Of a stretch of 35,129 nt of DNA, positions 185-32,945 are shown in pieces (within the stretch, counting starts at the first letter, position 1; each line of letters starts with the position of its first letter). The DNA lies in assembly GCA_029253285.1 (NCBI GenBank), contig JAQWZU010000015.1:1-35129 (forward strand). The letters run 5' to 3'. Both the position numbers and the translations under genes were made by a program. Origin of the DNA: Akkermansiaceae bacterium (GTDB taxonomy: Bacteria > Verrucomicrobiota > Verrucomicrobiia > Verrucomicrobiales > Akkermansiaceae). The notes below the pieces were generated by a model that saw only the letters and a list, made by a program, of their open reading frames with translations, was not told where the DNA came from and made no database searches.

Positions 185-604
185 TCAATCCCCTTGCACC
201 ATGACCACGACACTTCGTTGATGCGGATGATCTCGATGCTCGAAGAGAAAGATCCCCTGCCAGGTCCCCAGAGCCATCCGGCCATCGATAACAGGAACGA
301 CCTCGCTACATCCACTCAGCACCATACGAATGTGGGATGGCATGTCATCCGGACCTTCGTAGGTGTGAATGAAATAAGGCGTATCTTCCGGAACAAGGTG
401 ATCAAAGAACGCATGAAGATCCGTGCGGGCACTGGCGTCAGCATTTTCCATAATCACCAGACTGGCGCTGGTGTGCTGCACGAAGACCGTGACGGTGCCT
501 GTTTGGATTCCCGACTCCGAAACCACCTCGGAAATCTGCCGCGTGATCTCATAAGTCCCCTTGCCCGATGAACGGAGCGAAAAGCTGGCTGGATAAGTCG
601 CCAT
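185..604 (-). CDS. YjbQ family protein (UPF0047)
   Basis: This 139-aa protein has the full length of the UPF0047/YjbQ family. Two family signatures are clear: a QHTSASLVIMENAD stretch near residue 43, and a C-terminal segment with MALGTWQGIFLFEHRD, where conserved His and Glu residues line a putative metal site. Family members have been reported to have weak thiamine-phosphate synthase activity in E. coli, but the physiological role is unsettled. The protein should be cytoplasmic; there is no signal peptide. The start lies 11 bp after the stop of the PDZ protein gene, so it is probably the distal gene of the sigma-factor operon, although its function gives no obvious link to it. Confidence 0.9.
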   Translation of the reverse strand: MATYPASFSLRSSGKGTYEITRQISEVVSESGIQTGTVTVFVQHTSASLVIMENADASARTDLHAFFDHLVPEDTPYFIHTYEGPDDMPSHIRMVLSGCSEVVPVIDGRMALGTWQGIFLFEHRDHPHQRSVVVMVQGD

Positions 605-615
605 CGATCGATCAA

Positions 616-1497
616 TTATTTCTTCTCGACCGAGGACCCGGGATAGAGAGCCGGTATCACCTTCATCGTCTTCACTTCCAATCCACGGAGAATCTTAAAT
701 TCGACCTCCTGTTTGGGAATTAGGTAATAGAAGGCATTGATCGCGGAGGAATAATCAGACACCTCCCAATCGCCAACCTGAAGGAGGACATCCCCATTCT
801 GGAACCCAAACTTCTTGGCCGGCGAGTCCGGACGAATGCCCTCCACAAATGCCACGGTGTTCCTGACATCAAGGTGAAGACCCATCCAGCTGTGACCGAT
901 TGATTTTGAAACCTTGTAGTTGGCGAGATTGCGAAGAACGGCATCCGCAGGAATCGCGAAGGTCCCCTTACCCAAATCGTTGGTCGCCTGATGACAAATC
1001 GCCACGACCTCGCCCTGATCATTTTGGAGAGGATGACCTGGAATCGGATTAGTGGAATGATTGACCCGCAAAAATGTCAGCGGCAGTTGTTGATCACTAA
1101 AAGTCGCTCCCCATCCGACGACGGCGCTGGTGACTGTTTCTCCGTTCTTGCTCGGGAGATTTTTCAGACTGTCTCCGCCCTTGAGATTCCGACCGCTTGC
1201 GAAACTGACCGGCTTTGCGCCCTTGGGTCCACGAAGCAGGGTCATCCGCGATTTAGGATCCTGAGCAAGTAATTCGTAGAATTTTCCGTCGCACTGCCCC
1301 TTCGAAACATCCGCTCCCACAACTCCAATGGTGACATACAAACCATCGGCATCAACCGGGACGAGCTCTGCTCGATGAAATTTCCCCTTAACCGACGAGG
1401 GAAACTGAATTTCCTCCCCCGCGATCAGTGAAGGCAAGCAGGAAAAAGAAAACGCGCCGATGCTGAAGCAAGCGCGCTGGAAAAGTTGGTTCAACAT
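616..1497 (-). CDS. Secreted HtrA-like PDZ protein, catalytic serine absent
   Basis: The ATG at 1497 is preferred over an upstream in-frame ATG at 1626 because it begins a hydrophobic signal peptide (MLNQLFQRACFSIGAF...) and avoids overlap with the preceding gene. The 293-aa product has a chymotrypsin-like region (about residues 30-190) followed by a PDZ domain (about 200-285, with GIRPDSPAKKFGFQNGDVLL). Where HtrA proteases have GNSGGPL, this protein has PIPGHPL followed by QNDQGEVVAI, so the nucleophilic serine is replaced by proline; no TNxHV histidine motif is seen either. It is therefore probably a non-proteolytic binding or sensor protein of the periplasm. The gene begins 10 bp after the anti-sigma-like gene and is likely cotranscribed with the ECF sigma factor. 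No strong Shine-Dalgarno sequence is visible. Confidence 0.8.
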   Translation of the reverse strand: MLNQLFQRACFSIGAFSFSCLPSLIAGEEIQFPSSVKGKFHRAELVPVDADGLYVTIGVVGADVSKGQCDGKFYELLAQDPKSRMTLLRGPKGAKPVSFASGRNLKGGDSLKNLPSKNGETVTSAVVGWGATFSDQQLPLTFLRVNHSTNPIPGHPLQNDQGEVVAICHQATNDLGKGTFAIPADAVLRNLANYKVSKSIGHSWMGLHLDVRNTVAFVEGIRPDSPAKKFGFQNGDVLLQVGDWEVSDYSSAINAFYYLIPKQEVEFKILRGLEVKTMKVIPALYPGSSVEKK

Positions 1498-1507
1498 AGG
1501 GACATTC

Positions 1508-1903
1508 TTAAAATTCCCGGAGCGTTGTCGAGCCGGATCCGGAATTCTCAATTTTGGGGAAATCAACCGTTGGCAGCGGGGTTCCCTTATTCGGCTGATA
1601 GCTTGCCGGCTGCATATTGGGATCATCCATTTTGGTCGGATTTCCGATTGGCCACATGAAAACAGCAGCCATCACTCCGGCGTATGCCGCACCTGCTCCT
1701 GCGACCCATTTGACAGCCCCCTGTTCACGATACCAGGTTGCCACTCGATCTTTGAACAATCCAAAAGATGATTGCTTTAGGAGTTCTCCACGCTGTCGGG
1801 TTTGAAATTCTTCGAGAAAATTCTCAAAATATTCTTCGGGCGGAGATTCATGTCGCTTGAGGCGAATGAGCTTTTGAACGTCTTCTTCTTGGGATTGATT
1901 CAT
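1508..1903 (-). CDS. Anti-sigma-like single-TM protein
   Basis: This 131-aa protein starts 16 bp downstream of the sigma factor gene. It has a charged cytoplasmic N-terminus of about 63 residues, including LKRHESPPEEYFENFLEEFQ, then one transmembrane helix (about residues 64-86, VKWVAGAGAAYAG onward), then a Pro/Asn/Ser-rich outer tail of about 45 residues. The layout (cytoplasmic arm, one TM, periplasmic tail) and the position directly behind an ECF sigma gene fit a membrane-bound anti-sigma factor. It lacks the zinc-binding HxxxCxxC motif of classical anti-sigma factors, so the assignment rests on position and topology. Proteins with a similar RLKRxExPPxxYFExF segment next to sigma genes are known to me from this phylum. 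The role is inferred. Confidence 0.7.
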   Translation of the reverse strand: MNQSQEEDVQKLIRLKRHESPPEEYFENFLEEFQTRQRGELLKQSSFGLFKDRVATWYREQGAVKWVAGAGAAYAGVMAAVFMWPIGNPTKMDDPNMQPASYQPNKGTPLPTVDFPKIENSGSGSTTLREF

Positions 1904-1919
1904 CTAACAGGGGCTGGGA

Positions 1920-2507
1920 TTAACGGAGGAATTCCTCCAAATGCCCTCGTAATTGTTGGTGGGCATAAAAGAGTCGCGAGCGCACGGTTCCTTCTGAAAC
2001 CGAAAGAATTTGGCTAATCTCGGCATGCGGAAGTCCTTGAATATCAAACATGGCAACCACGGCTCTATGGTCATCAGACAGCGCTTGCATCGATTCGTTC
2101 AATTTTTTTTGAAGTTCATTAACATCGCTTTGGTGTCGGGGGTTGGATGCATGCCCGATGTCCACCATGGCCTCGTCATTCTGAATCCCCGAATCCACGT
2201 CATCCAGGCTCCAGGTGGCGCGACGTTTACGCTTTTTCAGGAAATTGAGCGTCATATTCGTCCCGATGGCATAAATCCAGGTATAGAAGCTCGATTTCCC
2301 CCGGAATCGCTTCAAGGAACGATAGGCCTTCGCGAAAATATCCTGCATCAGATCGTTGGTGTCCTCTTTGTGCGAAGTCATGTGATAAACCAGCCCATAA
2401 AGACGCGGACTATATTTCACGACCAGCTCGTCGAAGGCCCGCGTGTCTCCATCCTGCGCCAAGCGGACGAGTTCTTCATCGGATTCGGAGGCGGAGATGG
2501 AAGACAT
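1920..2507 (-). CDS. ECF RNA polymerase sigma factor
   Basis: The product is a sigma-70 family ECF sigma factor of 195 aa from the ATG at 2507; an in-frame ATG at 2540 would add 11 residues lacking homology character. Region 2 (about residues 15-90) contains DELVVKYSPRLYGLVYHM and the -10-recognising FYTWIYAIGTNMTLNFLKKR. Region 4 (about 135-190) ends with the helix-turn-helix ISQILSVSEGTVRSRLFYAH. Region 3 is missing, as expected for ECF factors. It heads a minus-strand run with the anti-sigma-like and PDZ genes, reminiscent of RpoE-RseA-DegP envelope-stress modules. The 68-bp gap to folB could hold its promoter, but I cannot identify a convincing -35/-10 pair. Confidence 0.92.
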   Translation of the reverse strand: MSSISASESDEELVRLAQDGDTRAFDELVVKYSPRLYGLVYHMTSHKEDTNDLMQDIFAKAYRSLKRFRGKSSFYTWIYAIGTNMTLNFLKKRKRRATWSLDDVDSGIQNDEAMVDIGHASNPRHQSDVNELQKKLNESMQALSDDHRAVVAMFDIQGLPHAEISQILSVSEGTVRSRLFYAHQQLRGHLEEFLR

Positions 2508-2575
2508 GTGACAGGTGCATTGACCGGAAATCCGTGCCAAAAGCTAATATAAGGACAGACCATGTCCGATGTCGT

Positions 2576-2932
2576 TCAAATTCTTTCGCCACGTTTTCGT
2601 TCGATAACCACTCCGACCCAGTCGGTCTCGGGCAAAATGAACTTTTCCAGCTCAACCCGGATGGCATTGACTGGAAATTCAGCGAGAACATACCTTGCAA
2701 TTTCCTGGGCCAAAGTCTCGATCAATTGTCGCTCTCCACTCCCGACGAGCTCGCGAACCTGATCAGAGACCGCCTTGTAATCCACGGTCAGCCCAATTTC
2801 GTCATCAGTGGGAAAATCCGCAACATCCAAGGTGAGGTGAGCGAGAAGATTCTGGGGCTCGGCCCGCTCCTCCGCCGGCACTCCGACCTGACAGCGCAGT
2901 TGCAATCCCCGAATGATGATTTGGTCAGCCAT
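2576..2932 (-). CDS. folB: Dihydroneopterin aldolase
   Basis: FolB converts 7,8-dihydroneopterin to 6-hydroxymethyl-7,8-dihydropterin and glycolaldehyde in folate synthesis. The 118-aa length is usual for the family. Recognisable segments are the N-terminal IIIRGLQLRCQVGVPAEER with the conserved Glu region, the LTVDYKAVSDQVRELV segment, the ERQLIETLAQEIA helix, and VELEKFILPETDWVGVVIER with the conserved lysine. It is cytoplasmic. It lies 68 bp upstream of the sigma factor gene on the same strand; no other folate gene is in the window, so it appears to be a scattered housekeeping gene. Its promoter would have to lie in or beyond the DUF1501 remnant. Confidence 0.93.
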   Translation of the reverse strand: MADQIIIRGLQLRCQVGVPAEERAEPQNLLAHLTLDVADFPTDDEIGLTVDYKAVSDQVRELVGSGERQLIETLAQEIARYVLAEFPVNAIRVELEKFILPETDWVGVVIERKRGERI

Positions 2933-2977
2933 GGGCCGACTCTAGGTCCTGTGGAGACGATGGTCAACGAGTTCGAA

Positions 2978-3214
2978 TCAGGCCAGCACTCCTGTGACGA
3001 CCTTGCCATGCACATCGGTCAGCCTGAACTGCCGCCCTTGATAACGGAAGGTTAGCCTCTCATGATCGATGCTCAGGAGATGGAGGATGGTTGCATTGAA
3101 ATCATGCACGTGAACCGGGTCCTTTCCGATCCCATCGCCAAGTTCATCAGTCTCACCATGGAATTGCCTCGTATGCAAGAAAGATGGATCTTCCATTACC
3201 CGCAGAAGGAGCAA
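2978..3214 (-). pseudogene. C-terminal fragment of a DUF1501 protein
   Basis: About 60 residues (roughly 2978-3160) match the C-terminus of DUF1501 proteins, the secreted sulfatase-related family common in Planctomycetes and Verrucomicrobia. The diagnostic stretch is [16 protein letters not shown], followed by [21 protein letters not shown], and it ends in a normal stop. A complete DUF1501 protein is around 400-480 aa; the upstream part is missing here and the frame runs into the divergent sulfatase 5' region. I read it as the stump left by a deletion, not a functional small gene. It sits between folB and an intact sulfatase, and DUF1501 genes are often neighbours of sulfatases and PSD-domain genes in these phyla. 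Confidence 0.75.
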
Positions 3215-3240
3215 GACTTCGCTCCGAATCCGACCCTATC

Positions 3241-4797
3241 ATGAAAAAGAATGACCTTCGTATTTTCAAAGCTGCTTTGGCGACAGCCGCCATGCTACTG
3301 ACGACCAATGCCTCGGCAAGCAAACCGAACATCGTGGTCATCGTCGCTGACGATCTGGGCTACGCCGATTTGAGCTTCCTCCCTCAGTCGCCGAAAGATG
3401 TCAGCACGCCGGGGATTGATCGAATTGCCAAGCTCGGCACCTATTTCTCGAACGCCTATGCCACCGCACCAATTTGCTCGCCCTCCCGAGCCGGACTGAT
3501 CACGGGACGCTACCAACAGCGTTGGGGGAATTTCTGGTATGGTCAGGGCGGACTGCCTCTCTCCGAGTTCACCATCCCTCAGGCTCTCAAAAAGCAAGGC
3601 TACTTCACCCAGAAAATCGGCAAGACCCACCTCAATGGCGGCGAAGCGCAACATCCGCTCGACCACGGCTTCGATGAGTTCCTTGGATTCATCCACCACA
3701 CTTGGGATTACATCCGCCTCTCACAAAAGGATCTCGATGCCTACCGCGAACGGACTGGTAAAGGAAAGAAACTGGGAATCCTCAACGTCGGCCCGCTGCA
3801 ACGCAATCGCGGAGAAAAGGTTTCATACGAAGACGACGCATTCACCACTGAGATTTTCACCAGCGAGGCAATCAAAACCATCCGCGAAAAATCGGCGGCG
3901 AAGACGCCATTTTTCATCCAACTGGAATACAACGCGGTCCACATGCCAACCTACGTTACCGATCCCAAATACGCCAAGAAAGCTGGCTACGAGCAGCCAA
4001 AGTGGGATCGTAAGGCCGGGCAATGGAAGTTCCCCTTCTGGGAACCCAAAGAAATGTCATGGGGCGAGTGGCACAAGAAATGGGGTCACCTTGGCGAAGT
4101 CGATCCTCTCGGACGTAAACGATATTTGGCCAACCTCATGGCTCTCGATGATGGGATCTCAAAGTTGCTAGACAGCCTGGAAGATTCCGATCAGTTGAAT
4201 AACACCATCCTGATCTTCCTCTCCGACAACGGCGGAACGATCAACACCTACTCCAACAATGCTCCCCTACGGGGCTACAAATACATGTTTGGCGAAGGTG
4301 GGATCCGCGTCCCGCTCATCGTGGCCTGGCCAGGAAAAATCCCGGGCGGAATGAGCAACAGCAGTCTCGCCTCGGCAATGGATATCTTCCCGACATTACT
4401 TGAGCTTGTAGACTCCGAAAGACCGGAGAATCTTGATGGCGAGAGTCTCGTTCCCTGGCTCAAAAACAAGGAAACCAGTGACGTGCACGACCACCTCTGC
4501 TGGAGCGACGGGCGCGGCACCAGTGTCATTCGCAAGGGCCCTTGGAAACTGATTACCTCAAAGGGCTGGGAGCACAGTAACTTCCAACTCGACGAACAAG
4601 GCATCGCCAAACCAGCATCCGATTCCAAGTATCCGGACGGCACGGTCTTATTCAATCTCAAGCAAGACATCGGTGAAACGACCGACGTCTCCGACAAGCA
4701 TCCCGAGATCGTCAAAGAACTCTCCGGCCTCTACCATCAATGGCGCTCAAAAATGAAATCCAAAGGTAAAAAAGGCAAAGGCAAGAACTCCAAGTAG
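3241..4797 (+). CDS. Secreted sulfatase (formylglycine-dependent)
   Basis: This 518-aa type I sulfatase hydrolyses sulfate esters, probably of an algal or other sulfated polysaccharide; the substrate is not predictable. The ATG at 3241 is chosen because it starts a signal peptide (MKKNDLRIFKAALATAAMLL, cleavage near ASA). The metal-binding VADDLGYADLS (residues 35-45) and the modification motif C79-S-P-S-R83, in which Cys becomes formylglycine, are intact, and a later LSDNGG segment carries further metal ligands. The C-terminus is lysine-rich (KSKGKKGKGK). An anaerobic-type or FGE maturase must be encoded elsewhere. Flanking genes are fragments of a DUF1501 protein and of a possible second sulfatase, so this looks like the survivor of a larger locus. 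Confidence 0.93.
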   Translation: MKKNDLRIFKAALATAAMLLTTNASASKPNIVVIVADDLGYADLSFLPQSPKDVSTPGIDRIAKLGTYFSNAYATAPICSPSRAGLITGRYQQRWGNFWYGQGGLPLSEFTIPQALKKQGYFTQKIGKTHLNGGEAQHPLDHGFDEFLGFIHHTWDYIRLSQKDLDAYRERTGKGKKLGILNVGPLQRNRGEKVSYEDDAFTTEIFTSEAIKTIREKSAAKTPFFIQLEYNAVHMPTYVTDPKYAKKAGYEQPKWDRKAGQWKFPFWEPKEMSWGEWHKKWGHLGEVDPLGRKRYLANLMALDDGISKLLDSLEDSDQLNNTILIFLSDNGGTINTYSNNAPLRGYKYMFGEGGIRVPLIVAWPGKIPGGMSNSSLASAMDIFPTLLELVDSERPENLDGESLVPWLKNKETSDVHDHLCWSDGRGTSVIRKGPWKLITSKGWEHSNFQLDEQGIAKPASDSKYPDGTVLFNLKQDIGETTDVSDKHPEIVKELSGLYHQWRSKMKSKGKKGKGKNSK

Positions 4798-9565: not shown

Positions 9566-9990
9566 CGTGCGCCTACTCAAGCAGGCCCAAATTAGCCGAC
9601 AAGTATTTCTATCCTTTGCCGCTCAATTTCCTTCTCATACGCCCTCGTTTGCATGCAGCCCCAAACTGGCTAAACACAGCAACAAAGCCCTCTCAGCCCT
9701 CAAGATGCTCCTACGCCTCGGCGCCGTCCTATTGGCTGGCGCAACAAGCAGTCACGGGATAGACATTATTGATAATTTCGACAGCACGGAACTGGTTGGG
9801 GATCTGGAGATCTCTCCACTCGGAAGCGTCTTCTCCTTCCTCCTCCTCGTAAAACCACCGTCTTCGAGTGGACTTTGGGACCTACTCCGATCACCAGAAT
9901 TCGAGTAAGGAAATTCATCATAAGATCCTCTGCATGTCGTATATTCGCAGACTTGTCGAAAGAGATTTAATTACCCAGGGTATCCAGCAC
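9566..9990. other. 425-bp spacer with a possible small secreted ORF
   Basis: No convincing gene fills this interval. An ATG at 9705 opens a 67-codon frame on the plus strand (ending 9908) with a hydrophobic start (MLLRLGAVLLAGATSS) that could be a signal peptide, followed by DIIDNFDSTELVGDL. After about residue 40 an alternative frame keeps a plausible beta-strand pattern (TTVFEWTLGPTPITRIRV) before stopping, so this may be the frameshifted, truncated start of a secreted protein. It precedes the 881-aa dehydrogenase gene and may also hold its promoter. I see no clear terminator or -35/-10. Confidence 0.35.
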
Positions 9991-12636
9991 ATGCAACTTC
10001 TGGTCGCCACCATTCTCCTCTCGTTCACTTTATTAGGATTGGGGCAGGCTCCTCCGGCCTTTCGCTTTCAGATCGACACACTCCACGAAGGCATCCCCCA
10101 GCCGATGCATCTGGAGCATGGGCCTGATGGCAAAATCTACTTCATCGAGATCGCCGGCAAAGTCCAACGCTTCGATCTCAAGTCAAAATCTCTCACCACC
10201 CTCGGTAAAGTTGTCATCACCAATGATCAGGAAAACGGCCTCATCGGAATGGCTCTCGATCCCGACTTCGCAAGCAATCAATGGATCTACCTCTACCACT
10301 CCCCCGTCGATTTCAAGGGACAGATCCTAAGCCGATTCACCATCACCGCAGACAAACTCGATCACGCCAGTCGTATCGACATTCTCAAAGTCGATGAGCA
10401 ACGAAACCAATGCTGCCACCACGGTGGAACGATTCGATTCGGCCGCGATGGCAACCTCTTCATCTCAACCGGAGACAACACCAGCCCCTTCGCCTCTAAT
10501 GGATTTTCTCCAATCGACGAACGAAAAGGCCGCGAACCATTTGATGCCCAAAAATCCTCTGGAAATACCAACGACCTCCGCGGAAAGATCCTTCGCATTA
10601 AAGTGAAGCCAGACGGCACCTATGAAATCCCAAAGGGCAATCTCTTTCCCGAAGGCATGAAGAAAACCCGCCCGGAAATCTTTGCCATGGGATTCCGAAA
10701 CCCCTGGCGATTCTCCGTCGACCCCGTCACCAACTGGCTCTACGTCGGTGACGTCGGCCCTGACTCGGGCAAAGACGATCCCAACCGTGGCCCGCGCGGC
10801 CACGACATCCTCTACCAAATCCGCAAGGCCGGAAATTTCGGCTGGCCTTACGTTCGAGCCAAAAAGGCGTATCACGATTTTGACTTCGCAACGAACAAGT
10901 CAGGCGACGCCTTCGATCCTAAAGGCCCCCTCAACAAAAGCCCCAACAATACCGGCCTCGAAAAACTCCCGCCCGTTTCCGACCCCCTCGTCTATTACCC
11001 TCACGCGAAGGTCGATCAGTTTTCCCAACTCCACTCCGGCGGACGAACCTCTTGCGGCGGACCGGTCTTTCACTTTAAACCCGAATTTAAAAACACCGGC
11101 GGCTTCCCCCAATACTTTGACAAAGCCGCTCTCCACTTCGACTGGCAACGCCCATCCCTCAACTGGGTGCGCCTCGATGACCAAGGAAATTTCTCCAAAC
11201 TCGAACCCTTCACCGATGCCGTCAAGATCGGCCAAGGAAAAGACAGCCCCGGACAGCCCATGAAAATCCGCCGCCCCGCCGACATGATCTTCGGACCCGA
11301 CGGAGCCCTCTACATTCTCGACTACGGCGAAACATGGGGCGTGAACAAGGACGCCCGGCTCCTTCGCATTTCCTACCGCTGGGGCGAACTCCCTCCGGTC
11401 GTAAAAGCCAGCGCTTCCCCCTCTGCTTCCTCGGCGCCCTTGAAGGTGACCCTCTCGGCCAAAGGATCATTTTCCCCTGAAAAGAAAACCCTCTCTTACA
11501 AATGGACGCTCTTCCCCTCCGGCACCAAACTCGGAAGCGGGGAAACCCTCACCGCCACCATCGCCGAGCCCGGAAACCACTTCGCCCGCCTCACCATCAC
11601 CGACCCCGACGGTGGTAAAGCCTCTCTTGAAATCCCCCTCACCGTCGGCAACGCCCCTCCGGTCGTCGAGGCTGTCCATCCCACCGAGGGCAGCCTCTTC
11701 AAACCCGGACAAAAAATTCCCTATCAATTCAAAGTCACCGATGCCGAAGAGGGATCTTCAGAAACCACTCCGGACAACTTCTCCTCCCGCACCCTCGTCA
11801 CCGCCAAGTGGATTGGGCACGACGGAAAGAACATAGCATCCAATCCCGGACTCGCCCTCATGAAGCAATCCGACTGCTTCAACTGCCATGCCATCGACCA
11901 AAAACTCGTCGGCCCTTCCCTCATGGAAATTGCCGAGCGCTACCGGGGCCAAAAAGGAGCCCAACTGACCGCCACCGAGCGCGTCATCAAGGGATCCGCC
12001 GGAGTCTGGAGCGAACTCCCGATGCTCCCCCATCCGCAACACAGTATGGACGAAGCCCACCTCATGGTCTCCTGGATTTTCTCCCTTGATCCCAAAAAGC
12101 CGCTCACCGCGATGAAGCGGGGACTTTCTGGTGAAATTACCGCACCGGACAATCCAAACATCGGGTCATGCGTCATTGAGGCCACCTTCACCGATTTCGG
12201 GAAAGCCCCCGCCAATCCCCTGACCACCTTCAAAACCGTCTCGCTCCTTCACCACCGGATCGAAGCGGAAAGCGGAACGCTCGTCGGGGGCACCACCCTC
12301 GCAGCCCAAAACGAGGCCTCCAATGGCACCTCGGTCAACCGAATCGAACCCGGAAGACAAGTCATCCTGCCCGAATTCACTGCCCACGGCTTGAGCAAAG
12401 TCACGGTGAGAGCCACCTCGGGAAATGATGGGGGCGGAACCATCGAATTTCGCCATGGTGCAAAGGATGGACCGCTCCTCGCCACCGTCAAAGTCAACAA
12501 TACCGGGGGAATCAAAAACTACCAAACCTTCTCAGCCGCCTTCAAGACCCCCGAAAAAAGCGGACCCATCCACCTTGTCTTTACCCACCCAAAAAAAGGT
12601 CGTCTCATGTTCCTCGACTGGGTTCAATTCGACTGA
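9991..12636 (+). CDS. Secreted sorbosone-type dehydrogenase with PKD, cytochrome c and CBM domains
   Basis: This 881-aa protein is exported (MQLLVATILLSFTLLGLGQA). Domains in order are a six-bladed PQQ-dependent glucose/sorbosone dehydrogenase (about 25-460; FHLEHGPDGKIYF-like blades, AMGFRNPWRFSVDP, and GPDGALYILDYGE), a PKD/Ig-like domain (about 470-550), a cytochrome c (C629-F-N-C632-H633, LVGPSLMEIAERY), and a C-terminal carbohydrate-binding module resembling CBM6/35 (about 753-881, HRIEAESGTLVGG). It probably oxidises a sugar in the periplasm and hands electrons to its own heme, tethered to a glycan. The ATG at 9991 is chosen for the signal peptide; upstream in-frame ATGs at 9934 and 9868 add unlikely sequence. 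Related proteins occur across Verrucomicrobia and Planctomycetes, with substrates undetermined. Confidence 0.87.
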   Translation: MQLLVATILLSFTLLGLGQAPPAFRFQIDTLHEGIPQPMHLEHGPDGKIYFIEIAGKVQRFDLKSKSLTTLGKVVITNDQENGLIGMALDPDFASNQWIYLYHSPVDFKGQILSRFTITADKLDHASRIDILKVDEQRNQCCHHGGTIRFGRDGNLFISTGDNTSPFASNGFSPIDERKGREPFDAQKSSGNTNDLRGKILRIKVKPDGTYEIPKGNLFPEGMKKTRPEIFAMGFRNPWRFSVDPVTNWLYVGDVGPDSGKDDPNRGPRGHDILYQIRKAGNFGWPYVRAKKAYHDFDFATNKSGDAFDPKGPLNKSPNNTGLEKLPPVSDPLVYYPHAKVDQFSQLHSGGRTSCGGPVFHFKPEFKNTGGFPQYFDKAALHFDWQRPSLNWVRLDDQGNFSKLEPFTDAVKIGQGKDSPGQPMKIRRPADMIFGPDGALYILDYGETWGVNKDARLLRISYRWGELPPVVKASASPSASSAPLKVTLSAKGSFSPEKKTLSYKWTLFPSGTKLGSGETLTATIAEPGNHFARLTITDPDGGKASLEIPLTVGNAPPVVEAVHPTEGSLFKPGQKIPYQFKVTDAEEGSSETTPDNFSSRTLVTAKWIGHDGKNIASNPGLALMKQSDCFNCHAIDQKLVGPSLMEIAERYRGQKGAQLTATERVIKGSAGVWSELPMLPHPQHSMDEAHLMVSWIFSLDPKKPLTAMKRGLSGEITAPDNPNIGSCVIEATFTDFGKAPANPLTTFKTVSLLHHRIEAESGTLVGGTTLAAQNEASNGTSVNRIEPGRQVILPEFTAHGLSKVTVRATSGNDGGGTIEFRHGAKDGPLLATVKVNNTGGIKNYQTFSAAFKTPEKSGPIHLVFTHPKKGRLMFLDWVQFD

Positions 12637-12780: not shown

Positions 12781-15147
12781 ATGAGAGTCGCGATCATCTC
12801 CGATATCCACGCCAACCTTCAGGCGTTGCAGGCTGTCTTGCTGGATATCGAGCAGAACAACATCGACTCCATTGTCTGCCTGGGTGACATCGTTGGATAC
12901 GGTCCCCGCCCCAAGCAGGTTCTTGAAGAAGTCACCTGCCGAACGGAAAACATCATCCTGGGGAACCACGACGCGGTCATTGGAAACCGCCTTAATCCGA
13001 GCGAATTTAACGACAATGCCCATGAGGCTATCGATTGGACCCGCGAATGTCTCGGAGATGATTCCGCAAAGTTTTTTGGCAAAGTTCCAACCACGCTGCA
13101 ATTCGACGACGTTCTCTGCGTGCACGCGGAAGCCGCCGAACCTGAAAACTGGAACTACATCACCAACCCTGAATCAGCGCTTCCCTCTTTTCTCACTACC
13201 GATGCCAGCCTGATTTTCATGGGCCATACCCATTTACCCGGCATCTTCAGCTTCGACCCTGCCACTCAACAAGTCACTCAGAACCCACCTCAAGACAGCT
13301 TCTTCAATCCACACCAACGCCACCTGATCAATGTCGGGTCAGTCGGAGATCCTCGTGATGGCGACATCAACGCCTCCTACACCATCCTCGATATGGAATC
13401 ACAACACGTGAGCTTTCGACGTGTTCCATTCGACTACGAAGCGTTCCGCACCGACCAACTCTCCACCGGGCTCAAGCACAAATCCTGGTTCCTGAAACTC
13501 ATCGATTCCCAGGCCCAGGATATTGCCCCCATGGGTGACATGACCGCCCGCCCGACTTCACTCGTCACCGGACACATCAATCGACGACTCCCCTCCGTCT
13601 CGCTTTCTCCCCTGATCAATACTCCGACCAAACTCGCTTCGGCGGAAAAGAGCCAAAACCGCCTCGCTTTCTTCGGCGTCGCTGCGATCATCATCTGCTT
13701 CATTGGCCTGATCATGGTCATTAGTTCAAATTCCAACAACCCCTCGGAGGGCTCCTCCGACACCACCGCAGTCGTCGACAAGAAAAAGAAGAGGCCCAAG
13801 AACACCCCGCCGGTTAAACCATCCCCCAACCCAACAAGGGTCAAACCAGCCCCCCCTTCGATCGCCAAGATCCCAGATCCAGCACCAGATATTCCCGAAC
13901 CTCCGATCCCCGATCCCATTCCTGACCCGACTCCTGACCCGACTCCTGATCCAACTCCTGATCCCGACCCCAAGATCACTCCTCCTATCGCTCAGGGCGA
14001 GATGGTCGACCAACTCGCGAAAGCCTTTTTTGCGAAGGACTATGAAAAAACAAAAATCCTTGCTGAGAAAATCGATTCTGATGACCCCGAATTAAAAGAA
14101 CTCACCAGAAAATTCATTAACGCTGACAAAACCATTCTGGAATCCTTCCGTCCTGAAATCGGGAAAAAAACCAGCATCACTTTTACCAAGAACATCAAAC
14201 GAGAAGTTCGAATTGAAAAAATCTCAGAGACCAAGCTAACCTGCTCAACAATTGTCTCGGGAGAACGAAGAGTTAAGGAATTCACACCTGCTGATTTTGA
14301 CCTACGCTTTCGAATTGCCCGCCTGGCTTCTACCGACGACCCAATTCGCTACCTCTACGGAGGGGTCGAAGCTGCCCACTCGGATGACTTCACCCTCACC
14401 CAAGCCTCATTTGACAAACTTCCTCCCGAATTAAGATCAGCACTGAAAGGAGCCCTGATCAACTATGTTGTCGCTGCCGGACAAGCTGAACTCTTCGCAT
14501 TGTTAGACGAGAACAACATTCCGGCCGTGGATGGAGATCTCGAAAAAACGATTGATGCTATTTGGAGTGGCTCGGTAGATCTGGAAGCCACCAAATCCCT
14601 TCCGGGAAAAATTAATCTCATTCGAAAAAAACTCACCGAGGCCGAGGCTAGCGCACACCCCCTCGACTCGAAGCTCGCCAGTCTTCAAAAGGCATTTTCC
14701 ACAGACTATCGACAAGGACTGATTGCTGAATTCTACGAAAACCGGGAGCATCAGGGACGCCCCGTTTTCACGAGGATCGATCCAATCGTGGACTTCGACT
14801 GGGGCGAGGAAGCACCTGCGCCGGATGTCGCCAAGGACTCTTTCTCCACCACCTGGACCGGATTTATCAAACCTCTTGAATCCGGCACCTACGAATTCAT
14901 GGTCGAGTTGGACGACCGGGGCTCCATCGGATTCCTGCAATCCAATCCAAATCCCATCCAGGGAAACTATGAGAATAATACCGAATTCGAACTCACTCTT
15001 GAGGCCGGAACATTCTATCCCTTCGAAATCAAACACATCGAAGGTTGGGGCAACGCCAAAGCCAAATTCCATTGGAGGCTAAAAGGCGAAGGTCGCTACA
15101 CCATCGTCCCCAAGGAAGTTCTCTTCCACCGCCCGCCCAGAGAATAA
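12781..15147 (+). CDS. Membrane protein: cytoplasmic metallophosphoesterase plus outside PA14 domain
   Basis: The 788-aa protein has a YfcE-like calcineurin phosphoesterase at residues 1-210: D8-I-H10, G35-D36, G61-N-H63-D, H115 and G148-H149-T-H151 are all present, so the two-metal site looks intact. No signal peptide precedes it. A linker leads to one transmembrane helix (about 295-316, AFFGVAAIIICFIGLIMVIS), then a Lys/Pro-rich stretch and PDPT repeats (about 378-393), a helical region of unknown type (about 400-640), and a PA14 domain (646-785, with GLIAEFYE and VELDDRGSIGF). PA14 domains usually bind glycans. The topology suggests that an outside ligand could control an inside phosphodiesterase or nucleotidase. 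Substrate and ligand are unknown. It is a single gene, convergent with the CPBP gene 4 bp away. Confidence 0.85.
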   Translation: MRVAIISDIHANLQALQAVLLDIEQNNIDSIVCLGDIVGYGPRPKQVLEEVTCRTENIILGNHDAVIGNRLNPSEFNDNAHEAIDWTRECLGDDSAKFFGKVPTTLQFDDVLCVHAEAAEPENWNYITNPESALPSFLTTDASLIFMGHTHLPGIFSFDPATQQVTQNPPQDSFFNPHQRHLINVGSVGDPRDGDINASYTILDMESQHVSFRRVPFDYEAFRTDQLSTGLKHKSWFLKLIDSQAQDIAPMGDMTARPTSLVTGHINRRLPSVSLSPLINTPTKLASAEKSQNRLAFFGVAAIIICFIGLIMVISSNSNNPSEGSSDTTAVVDKKKKRPKNTPPVKPSPNPTRVKPAPPSIAKIPDPAPDIPEPPIPDPIPDPTPDPTPDPTPDPDPKITPPIAQGEMVDQLAKAFFAKDYEKTKILAEKIDSDDPELKELTRKFINADKTILESFRPEIGKKTSITFTKNIKREVRIEKISETKLTCSTIVSGERRVKEFTPADFDLRFRIARLASTDDPIRYLYGGVEAAHSDDFTLTQASFDKLPPELRSALKGALINYVVAAGQAELFALLDENNIPAVDGDLEKTIDAIWSGSVDLEATKSLPGKINLIRKKLTEAEASAHPLDSKLASLQKAFSTDYRQGLIAEFYENREHQGRPVFTRIDPIVDFDWGEEAPAPDVAKDSFSTTWTGFIKPLESGTYEFMVELDDRGSIGFLQSNPNPIQGNYENNTEFELTLEAGTFYPFEIKHIEGWGNAKAKFHWRLKGEGRYTIVPKEVLFHRPPRE
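13921..13968 (+). repeat. Four 12-bp tandem repeats encoding PDPT
   Basis: Two identical copies of CCTGACCCGACT are followed by two variants (CCTGATCCAACT and CCTGATCCCGAC), giving PDPT-PDPT-PDPT-PDPD in the linker just outside the membrane helix of the phosphoesterase/PA14 protein. Because the unit is a multiple of three, copy-number change would alter linker length without a frameshift. Confidence 0.85.
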
Positions 15148-31400: not shown

Positions 31401-32945
31401 ATGGCAGGGATGAAATCAGCCCTCTTCGCCACCCTCGTCCTGTCTTCACCATCTGCGACCGCTGCCACGGGGATCGTTTTCCATGACTTAAACGCCGACG
31501 GAGTTCGTGACAAAGGCGAACCAGGCCTCCCCGGCGTTCCCGTTTCCAATCAGAAGGAAATCGTCCGCACCAATGCCGAAGGTCGATGGGAACTCCCTCA
31601 CGACGACGACACTATTTTCTTCGTCATCAAACCTCAAGGCTGGTCCACACAGCTCAAGGAGGACAACACGCCCCTCTTCTACTACATCCACAAACCCGCC
31701 GGCTCCCCCGCCAACCTGCGCTACCCCGGCGTCAAGCCGACCGGCCCTCTTCCCGCCTCCATCGACTTCGCGCTCACCAAACAAGAAGAGCCCAACAAAT
31801 TCAAAGCGATCTTTTTCGGCGACCCGCAACCGTCCAACATCGAACAAGTCGATCACATCGCGCACGACGTCATCGCCGAACTCATCGGTACAGATGCCAA
31901 GTTCGGCGTCACCTTGGGAGACATCATGTTCGACAGACTCGACCTCTTCGAAGCCTCCAATGCCAATCTCGCTCTCGTCGGCATCCCCTGGTATAACGTT
32001 GTCGGAAATCACGACCTGAATTTCGACTCCAACACCGACGAAGGATCCGACGAAACCTTTCACCGCTACTACGGACCGAACTACTATAGCTTCGACTACG
32101 GCCCCACTCACTTCATCGTCCTCGACGACGTCTCCTGGGGGATCAAAGGAAACGGAAAACGTTCCTACACCGGCGGACTCGATTCCGATCAAATCGCCTT
32201 CGTCAAAAACGACCTCGCACTCGTCCCCGAGAACAAACTCGTCATGCTCATGATGCACATCCCGCTGACCAATGTCGGCAACCGTCAGGAACTCTACCGC
32301 CTCATCGAAAAACGCCCCTACTCGCTCTCCATCTCCGGCCACACCCACTGGCATGCCCATCACTACATCGGCAAGGAAGACGACTGGCAGGGAGCCGAAC
32401 CGCACCATCACATCATCAACGTCACCGTCTCCGGCTCCTGGTGGAAGGGCAACAAAGACGAAGCCGGTATTCCCCACACCACCATGCGCGACGGCGCACC
32501 CAATGGTTACTCCATCATCACCTTCGACGGCACCAGCCACACCCTCGACTTTAAAGCCGCCCGTCAACCCGCCAACTACCAACTCAGCATCCACGCCCCG
32601 AGTTCCGTCAAAGCAGGTGACCTCGAAAAACATTCCGTCCACGTCAACGTCTTCAACGGCTCGAAAAAATCGGTCGTCAAAATGCGTCTCGCCAAAACCG
32701 CCGAGTGGATTCCCATGACAAAAACGCTCGAAGCCGATCCTCACTACGTCGAAACCCGCGAGCGCGAGATCAAAGCCAACCCGGAATCAAAACGTCACCT
32801 CAGCGGCCCCATCAAATCCGACCACCTCTGGAAAGCAAATCTCCCCGCTAAGCTAAAAACCGGCTCCCACCTCATCGAAATCGAAGCCACCGACACCTAC
32901 GGCCGCCCCCACACCGACAAGCGCATCATACGGGTAGAAGAATAA
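31401..32945 (+). CDS. Secreted three-domain calcineurin-like phosphoesterase
   Basis: The 514-aa protein has a signal peptide (ending near ATAAT; the ATG at 31410 is an alternative start), an N-terminal SdrD/MetallophosN-like beta domain (about 25-130, GIVFHDLNADGVRDKGEPG), a central metallophosphoesterase (about 135-340; FFGDPQP, TLGDIMFD, VVGNHDLN, MMHIPL, ISGHTHWH) and a C-terminal MetallophosC-like domain (about 350-514). The full set of two-metal ligands is present. Substrates of this secreted group are not established; phosphorylated glycans or teichoic-like polymers are conceivable. It ends just before a bidirectional terminator. Confidence 0.88.
   Translation: MAGMKSALFATLVLSSPSATAATGIVFHDLNADGVRDKGEPGLPGVPVSNQKEIVRTNAEGRWELPHDDDTIFFVIKPQGWSTQLKEDNTPLFYYIHKPAGSPANLRYPGVKPTGPLPASIDFALTKQEEPNKFKAIFFGDPQPSNIEQVDHIAHDVIAELIGTDAKFGVTLGDIMFDRLDLFEASNANLALVGIPWYNVVGNHDLNFDSNTDEGSDETFHRYYGPNYYSFDYGPTHFIVLDDVSWGIKGNGKRSYTGGLDSDQIAFVKNDLALVPENKLVMLMMHIPLTNVGNRQELYRLIEKRPYSLSISGHTHWHAHHYIGKEDDWQGAEPHHHIINVTVSGSWWKGNKDEAGIPHTTMRDGAPNGYSIITFDGTSHTLDFKAARQPANYQLSIHAPSSVKAGDLEKHSVHVNVFNGSKKSVVKMRLAKTAEWIPMTKTLEADPHYVETREREIKANPESKRHLSGPIKSDHLWKANLPAKLKTGSHLIEIEATDTYGRPHTDKRIIRVEE

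Follow-up and report, generated by a model that had tools for sequence, protein, structure and literature searches.

A predicted receptor-type phosphoesterase with a metallophosphoesterase head and an exported PA14 domain in an Akkermansiaceae bacterium, and its relatives in Verrucomicrobiota

Receptor-type phosphatases are few in bacteria, the PP2C enzyme PstP being the textbook case. The closest working analogue of the protein described here is this receptor-type Ser/Thr phosphatase of Mycobacterium tuberculosis (PP2C/PPM), which consists of a 237-residue intracellular catalytic domain, a juxtamembrane region, a single transmembrane (TM) helix and a 191-residue extracellular domain (PMC3052367). 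Many Verrucomicrobiota proteins that join a metallophosphoesterase (MPE) to a TM helix come near the same proportions (about 240 residues, 50 residues, TM, 180-200 residues), but the catalytic domain of PstP, a PP2C, has an unrelated fold. RsgI3, an anti-sigma factor of Clostridium thermocellum, also has a cytoplasmic signalling head, a TM helix and exported PA14, in the form of a PA14 pair that is reported to bind pectin and is the sensing module of this membrane protein (PMC4711584); it differs in that its head is not an enzyme but an anti-sigma domain acting through proteolysis, and in that it has two PA14 repeats instead of one. As for the head, SapH/Spr1479 (an asymmetric Ap4A hydrolase and phosphodiesterase) and 3rqz (a functionally uncharacterised MPE from Sphaerobacter) share its fold and active-site residues, those of the Metallophos_2 group of the calcineurin-like superfamily, but are soluble, without TM helix or ectodomain. 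In the literature outside subscription journals we found no description combining metallophosphoesterase, transmembrane, PA14 and Verrucomicrobia, in agreement with an earlier, sequence-only reading of this DNA, which knew of no described system of this kind.

The gene lies in a stretch of 35,129 nucleotides from an Akkermansiaceae bacterium (hereafter, the window), starts with ATG and runs without interruption (Table 1). Its product lacks an N-terminal signal sequence, the first strand of the MPE opening the chain directly (MRVAIISDIHANL). We propose, with moderate confidence, that this is a single-pass receptor-type phosphoesterase in which a ligand outside the cell, most likely a glycan, would set the activity of a cytoplasmic phosphatase, likeliest on phosphoproteins of the Hanks kinase network.

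Table 1. Features of the candidate receptor phosphoesterase (window coordinates) and of a natural MPE-kinase fusion (coordinates of its own locus)
Feature	Residues	Position	Strand	Basis
Whole gene, MPE - TM - linker - orphan segment - PA14	788 aa	12781..15147	+	ORF; full-length orthologues in three other genomes
Cytoplasmic metallophosphoesterase domain (predicted)	1-207	12781..13401	+	Pfam Metallophos_2, 3e-18; invariant columns; AlphaFold; fold match 3rqz
Receptor-specific extension and juxtamembrane stretch	208-295	13402..13665	+	family alignment
Single transmembrane helix (predicted)	296-314	13666..13722	+	hydrophobicity; AlphaFold helix 293-315
Pro/Asp-rich exported linker (predicted)	316-401	13726..13983	+	disordered in AlphaFold model
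Orphan segment of ectodomain	402-640	13984..14700	+	mostly helical, small beta patch (model)
PA14 domain	644-776	14710..15108	+	Pfam PA14; nearest solved relative RsgI3 PA14 pair
L074 fusion (G046:C95), 1367 residues	MPE 1-204; Ser/Thr kinase 297-550; TM 596-614; two laminin-G	563..4663	+	HRDIKPEN and DFG present in kinase

The PA14-type gene is carried by four genomes in all, that of the window included, and the fact that all four are drafts speaks for an assembly or gene-model artefact fusing two genes. We nevertheless reject such an artefact as extremely improbable. In three further species of the genus there is a full-length orthologue (91, 86 and 84% identical over 788 residues), so that a gene-model error is excluded, and the split into two separate genes in relatives, against which the sequence-only reading had warned, does not occur. 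With the frame continuous in four species, the downstream neighbours are moreover kept in all orthologues and the upstream ones wherever the contig extends, and the laminin-G ectodomain of a paralogue was only ever seen fused to MPE-TM in the 38 genomes searched. A wider scan of contigs yielded just three loci, in Verrucomicrobiales NP53, P03SWT0bin.3 and TMED86 (L065-L067); to judge by protein length, identity and contig these are evidently the same as the orthologue genomes G005, G002 and G017, and are thus not independent of them.

Two other genes of the window may be mentioned. Upstream on the same strand, 9868-12636 (+) encodes a protein of glucose/sorbosone-dehydrogenase type with PKD, cytochrome c and CBM6 domains, whose position is kept in one further species and which is truncated or off-contig in the others; the product of 31401-32945 (+) is another calcineurin-like phosphoesterase, unrelated to the first, that has MetallophosN and MetallophosC domains.

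The head matches Metallophos_2 with 66.8 bits (cut-off 27) and carries the DxH, GD, GNHD, H and GHTH metal ligands of the calcineurin-like superfamily; D8, H10, D36, N62, H63, H115, H149 and H151 are invariant across aligned family members, and the AlphaFold model of the domain has a pLDDT mostly above 90. It had been described earlier as an intact phosphoesterase of YfcE type. Intact it is, but the name YfcE is only approximate: the YfcE phosphodiesterase model TIGR00040 gives 37.1 bits, under its NCBIfam cut-off of 56.25, and the solved structure closest by sequence is not YfcE but 3rqz. The model of the symmetrical Ap4A hydrolase ApaH (NF001204) likewise stays under its NCBIfam cut-off (26.3 bits against 176), and the signatures of PPP phosphoprotein phosphatases (GDxHG, GDxVDRG, GNHE) are absent, the head family having SDIHAN, GDxVGYGP and GNHD; the head is therefore not established as a member of any characterised enzyme family. 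The absence of PPP motifs does not exclude activity on phosphoproteins, and the substrate cannot be read from the fold alone.

The sequence-only reading had supposed a phosphodiesterase or nucleotidase. A receptor of the same build whose head cleaves a small nucleotide (Ap4A-like, cyclic or a dinucleotide), so that the ligand would control how much of a second messenger or alarmone is present, is indeed a possible, if somewhat doubtful, reading. In a fold search (VIA) with the full model, which effectively covered residues 1-246 only, 3rqz (Z 29.9) and two archaeal proteins (about 25.5) were followed by SapH (24.9), the nearest characterised structure, well above the best PPP phosphatases (about 15.8); SapH, however, is only 22% identical to the head. 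ApaH-like 2qjc and YfcE match the head as well, although the ApaH and YfcE models fall so far under their cut-offs. A soluble MPE paralogue occurs, in addition, in kinase-free genomes of another family (g58), which speaks for this reading, whereas phosphoproteins account more readily for the natural fusion of an MPE to an apparently complete Ser/Thr kinase (L074, the only such fusion among the 74 genomes of its family). The genome of the window has 10 kinases above the Pfam cut-off, and the eight examined in full all have a TM helix; three of them (L103, L104 and L105) are receptor Ser/Thr kinases with C-type lectin (Lectin_C) ectodomains. These resemble our protein in having the head inside, one TM helix after the catalytic domain and a lectin ectodomain, and differ from it in that a kinase, of opposite chemistry, replaces the phosphoesterase, and in that the lectin fold is another one. 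Because of the fusion and of these lectin-bearing kinases we favour a phosphoprotein substrate, and consider a phosphoprotein phosphatase at least as likely as a phosphodiesterase or nucleotidase, which stays as one option.

The genes of PstP-like phosphatases usually adjoin that of their kinase (PMC6213207), whereas none of the MPE-TM genes at the loci examined shares an operon with a kinase (a kinase motif turns up in only two of the neighbouring genes, outside any operon with the MPE), which counts against phosphoproteins, as does the soluble paralogue of the kinase-free genomes; across the same loci there is no recurrent neighbour, beyond the synteny of close relatives, that would hint at the substrate. 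Among the matches listed, none of the 82 MPE-TM genomes belongs to the 28 kinase-free ones, a co-occurrence to which we give little weight because the kinase-free genomes belong to lineages without MPE-TM anyway. A further receptor Ser/Thr kinase of the window's genome (L111) has an ectodomain with PEGA and FGE-sulfatase domains.

The sole strong hydrophobic segment of the protein has a Kyte-Doolittle mean of 2.98, and such a segment is present in all of the 60 distinct relatives compared, each 330 residues or longer and some ending at a contig edge. Over 15 residues on each side of it, the N side carries the higher net charge in 55 of the 60 and the lower one in three, the two sides being equal in two, and Lys plus Arg around it average 3.5 on the N side against 1.7 on the C side. 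By the positive-inside rule, a prediction and not an experiment, the MPE head would be inside and PA14 outside, in a receptor-type single-pass layout with cytoplasmic head, one TM helix and exported ectodomain in one chain; the two domains are thus not placed on the same side of the membrane, an outcome that would have been fatal to the receptor idea. The helix and PDPT linker noticed earlier between the two domains are both confirmed, the PDPT run being encoded by a 12-nt tandem repeat (13920-13968), and the length of the linker varies among orthologues. On the predicted inner side, the stretch before the helix holds a conserved helix and a 'GL...FL..D' motif ('FL..D' at about residues 231-241, with F237 invariant), AlphaFold confidence being low beyond about residue 247.

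The first part of the ectodomain beyond the linker has no Pfam match in residues 402-640 and is restricted to the genus, being found in the orthologues of the window gene only, plus two marginal matches within the order. Structure prediction, which had been suggested for residues 400-640, gave a mean pLDDT of 49 for the ectodomain of four close orthologues, and the segment stays an orphan. The PA14 domain that the first reading placed at the C-terminal end is well supported (PF07691, 61.3 bits against a cut-off of 24, 1.2e-16) and retains a DD pair at residues 711-712. As its nearest solved relative is the PA14 pair of RsgI3 (9e-27), we infer by analogy that it may bind a glycan.

Inner and outer parts evolve very differently. 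Comparing the window gene with its orthologues (Nei-Gojobori; the TM helix offers few sites), dN/dS is 0.08-0.10 in the MPE head, which indicates strong purifying selection, 0.04-0.26 in the juxtamembrane stretch, 0.42-1.01 in the linker, 0.36-0.80 in the orphan segment and 0.39-1.04 in PA14, which is evolving fast. Among the four close species there are two sharply different types of PA14, one in the window and L007, the other in L008 and L009; since dS is also raised between the two types, there are hints that PA14 has been exchanged by recombination besides changing fast. The laminin-G paralogues give a similar picture, with mean identities of 74% in the head, 55% in laminin-G and 31% in the linker. 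A constant head with a changing outside part is the pattern expected of a recognition protein, and relaxed outer constraint would look similar.

The search for the MPE-TM-PA14 architecture that the sequence-only reading had advised returned full-length orthologues in three other species, and with them a wider MPE-TM family with swapped ectodomains. Besides the PA14 protein, the window's genome encodes a paralogue of 902 residues with a laminin-G ectodomain, also present in most of the genus, and 28 members scanned in the order have 28 MPE, 15 laminin-G, 8 PA14 and 4 F5/8C domains and one protein kinase; catalytic residues are unchanged across the aligned members while the ectodomains (PA14, laminin-G, F5/8C, unassigned) are exchanged. 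The folds of these other ectodomains are common among carbohydrate-binding modules. Of 387 Verrucomicrobiota genomes sampled, at least 82 have the head family in long frames, usually as MPE-TM-ectodomain (a lower bound, counting head matches above about 220 bits in open frames of at least 440 residues). The complete members examined from this phylum sample have a single TM helix near residues 280-335, followed by an ectodomain that may be short or long, in which Pfam recognises one F5/8C and one weak CBM35, most being without assignment. A tree built from 79 heads unites the TM proteins in a single group and separates them, at 100/100 support, from a soluble MPE paralogue of 240 residues; of the three TM-less sequences within this group, L023 and L142 are cut by contig ends and L057 has a genuine stop and no TM helix. 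This is most simply read as a single old TM family whose ectodomains were exchanged repeatedly, the window's PA14 type being one branch of it. With dozens of Verrucomicrobiota joining the same inner enzyme to many different outer domains, we seem to be dealing with a large and apparently undescribed family of receptor phosphoesterases in bacteria. Receptor phosphatases as such are known; as far as we found, metallophosphoesterase-based ones with such varied lectin-like ectodomains are not.

The ectodomain could, alternatively, be no sensor, and only anchor or localise the enzyme at envelope sites, for example near surface polysaccharide, with no signal crossing the membrane. We regard this as unlikely. 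The long, disordered and length-variable Pro/Asp linkers do make direct mechanical coupling harder, but long linkers are also seen in receptor kinases. Tail-anchored relatives that end with a TM helix and no ectodomain do exist (L070:2137-3267 (-) and L071:1878-2945 (-)), and one member (L158 and L165, in G504 and G510) lies among glycosyltransferase-like, asparagine synthase-like and carbamoyltransferase-like genes, probably a cluster for surface polysaccharide synthesis; varied ligand-binding folds on a constant head, together with the fast evolution of PA14, nevertheless fit recognition better.

Under the receptor reading that we prefer, the N-terminal MPE would work in the cytoplasm as a two-metal phosphoesterase, while the TM helix and the Pro-rich spacer would keep PA14 in the periplasm, within reach of envelope or imported material. 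A ligand of the ectodomain, most likely a glycan, might then act through the conserved juxtamembrane segment to shift how the MPE is oriented or assembled, so altering the rate at which a phosphorylated cytoplasmic target is hydrolysed. The likeliest target would be the phosphoproteins of the Ser/Thr (Hanks) kinase network, whose receptor kinases share the layout of head inside, TM helix and lectin ectodomain outside. The linker being disordered, we would speculate that coupling occurs by clustering or a change of dimer and not by a rigid lever. The earlier idea of a one-protein receptor is therefore borne out as regards its architecture, by the full-length orthologues, the charge bias and the phylum-wide head with interchangeable lectin-like ectodomains, whereas the coupling is something we infer.

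More tentatively, the receptor phosphoesterases of the phylum, with an ancient MPE head and fast-evolving, interchangeable glycan-binding ectodomains, might be the dephosphorylating counterpart of lectin-type receptor kinases, the two forming a lectin-driven kinase/phosphatase sensing network. If all this is true, a second, unrelated catalytic fold would have taken the role of receptor phosphatase within one phylum, where its ectodomains come in dozens of variants, and glycan-eating Verrucomicrobiota would gain a direct route from outside sugar to inside phospho-signalling. Genomes with many Hanks kinases would be supplied with a candidate phosphatase, and the natural phosphoesterase-kinase fusion would offer a handle on the question of the substrate.

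Finally, the soluble 240-residue MPE paralogue (L003:1465-2184 (-) and orthologues) occurs in almost every genome of the order, and in two genomes (L160 in G539 and L164 in G584) the MPE-TM gene lies directly downstream of an apparent RNF electron-transport operon, on the same strand.
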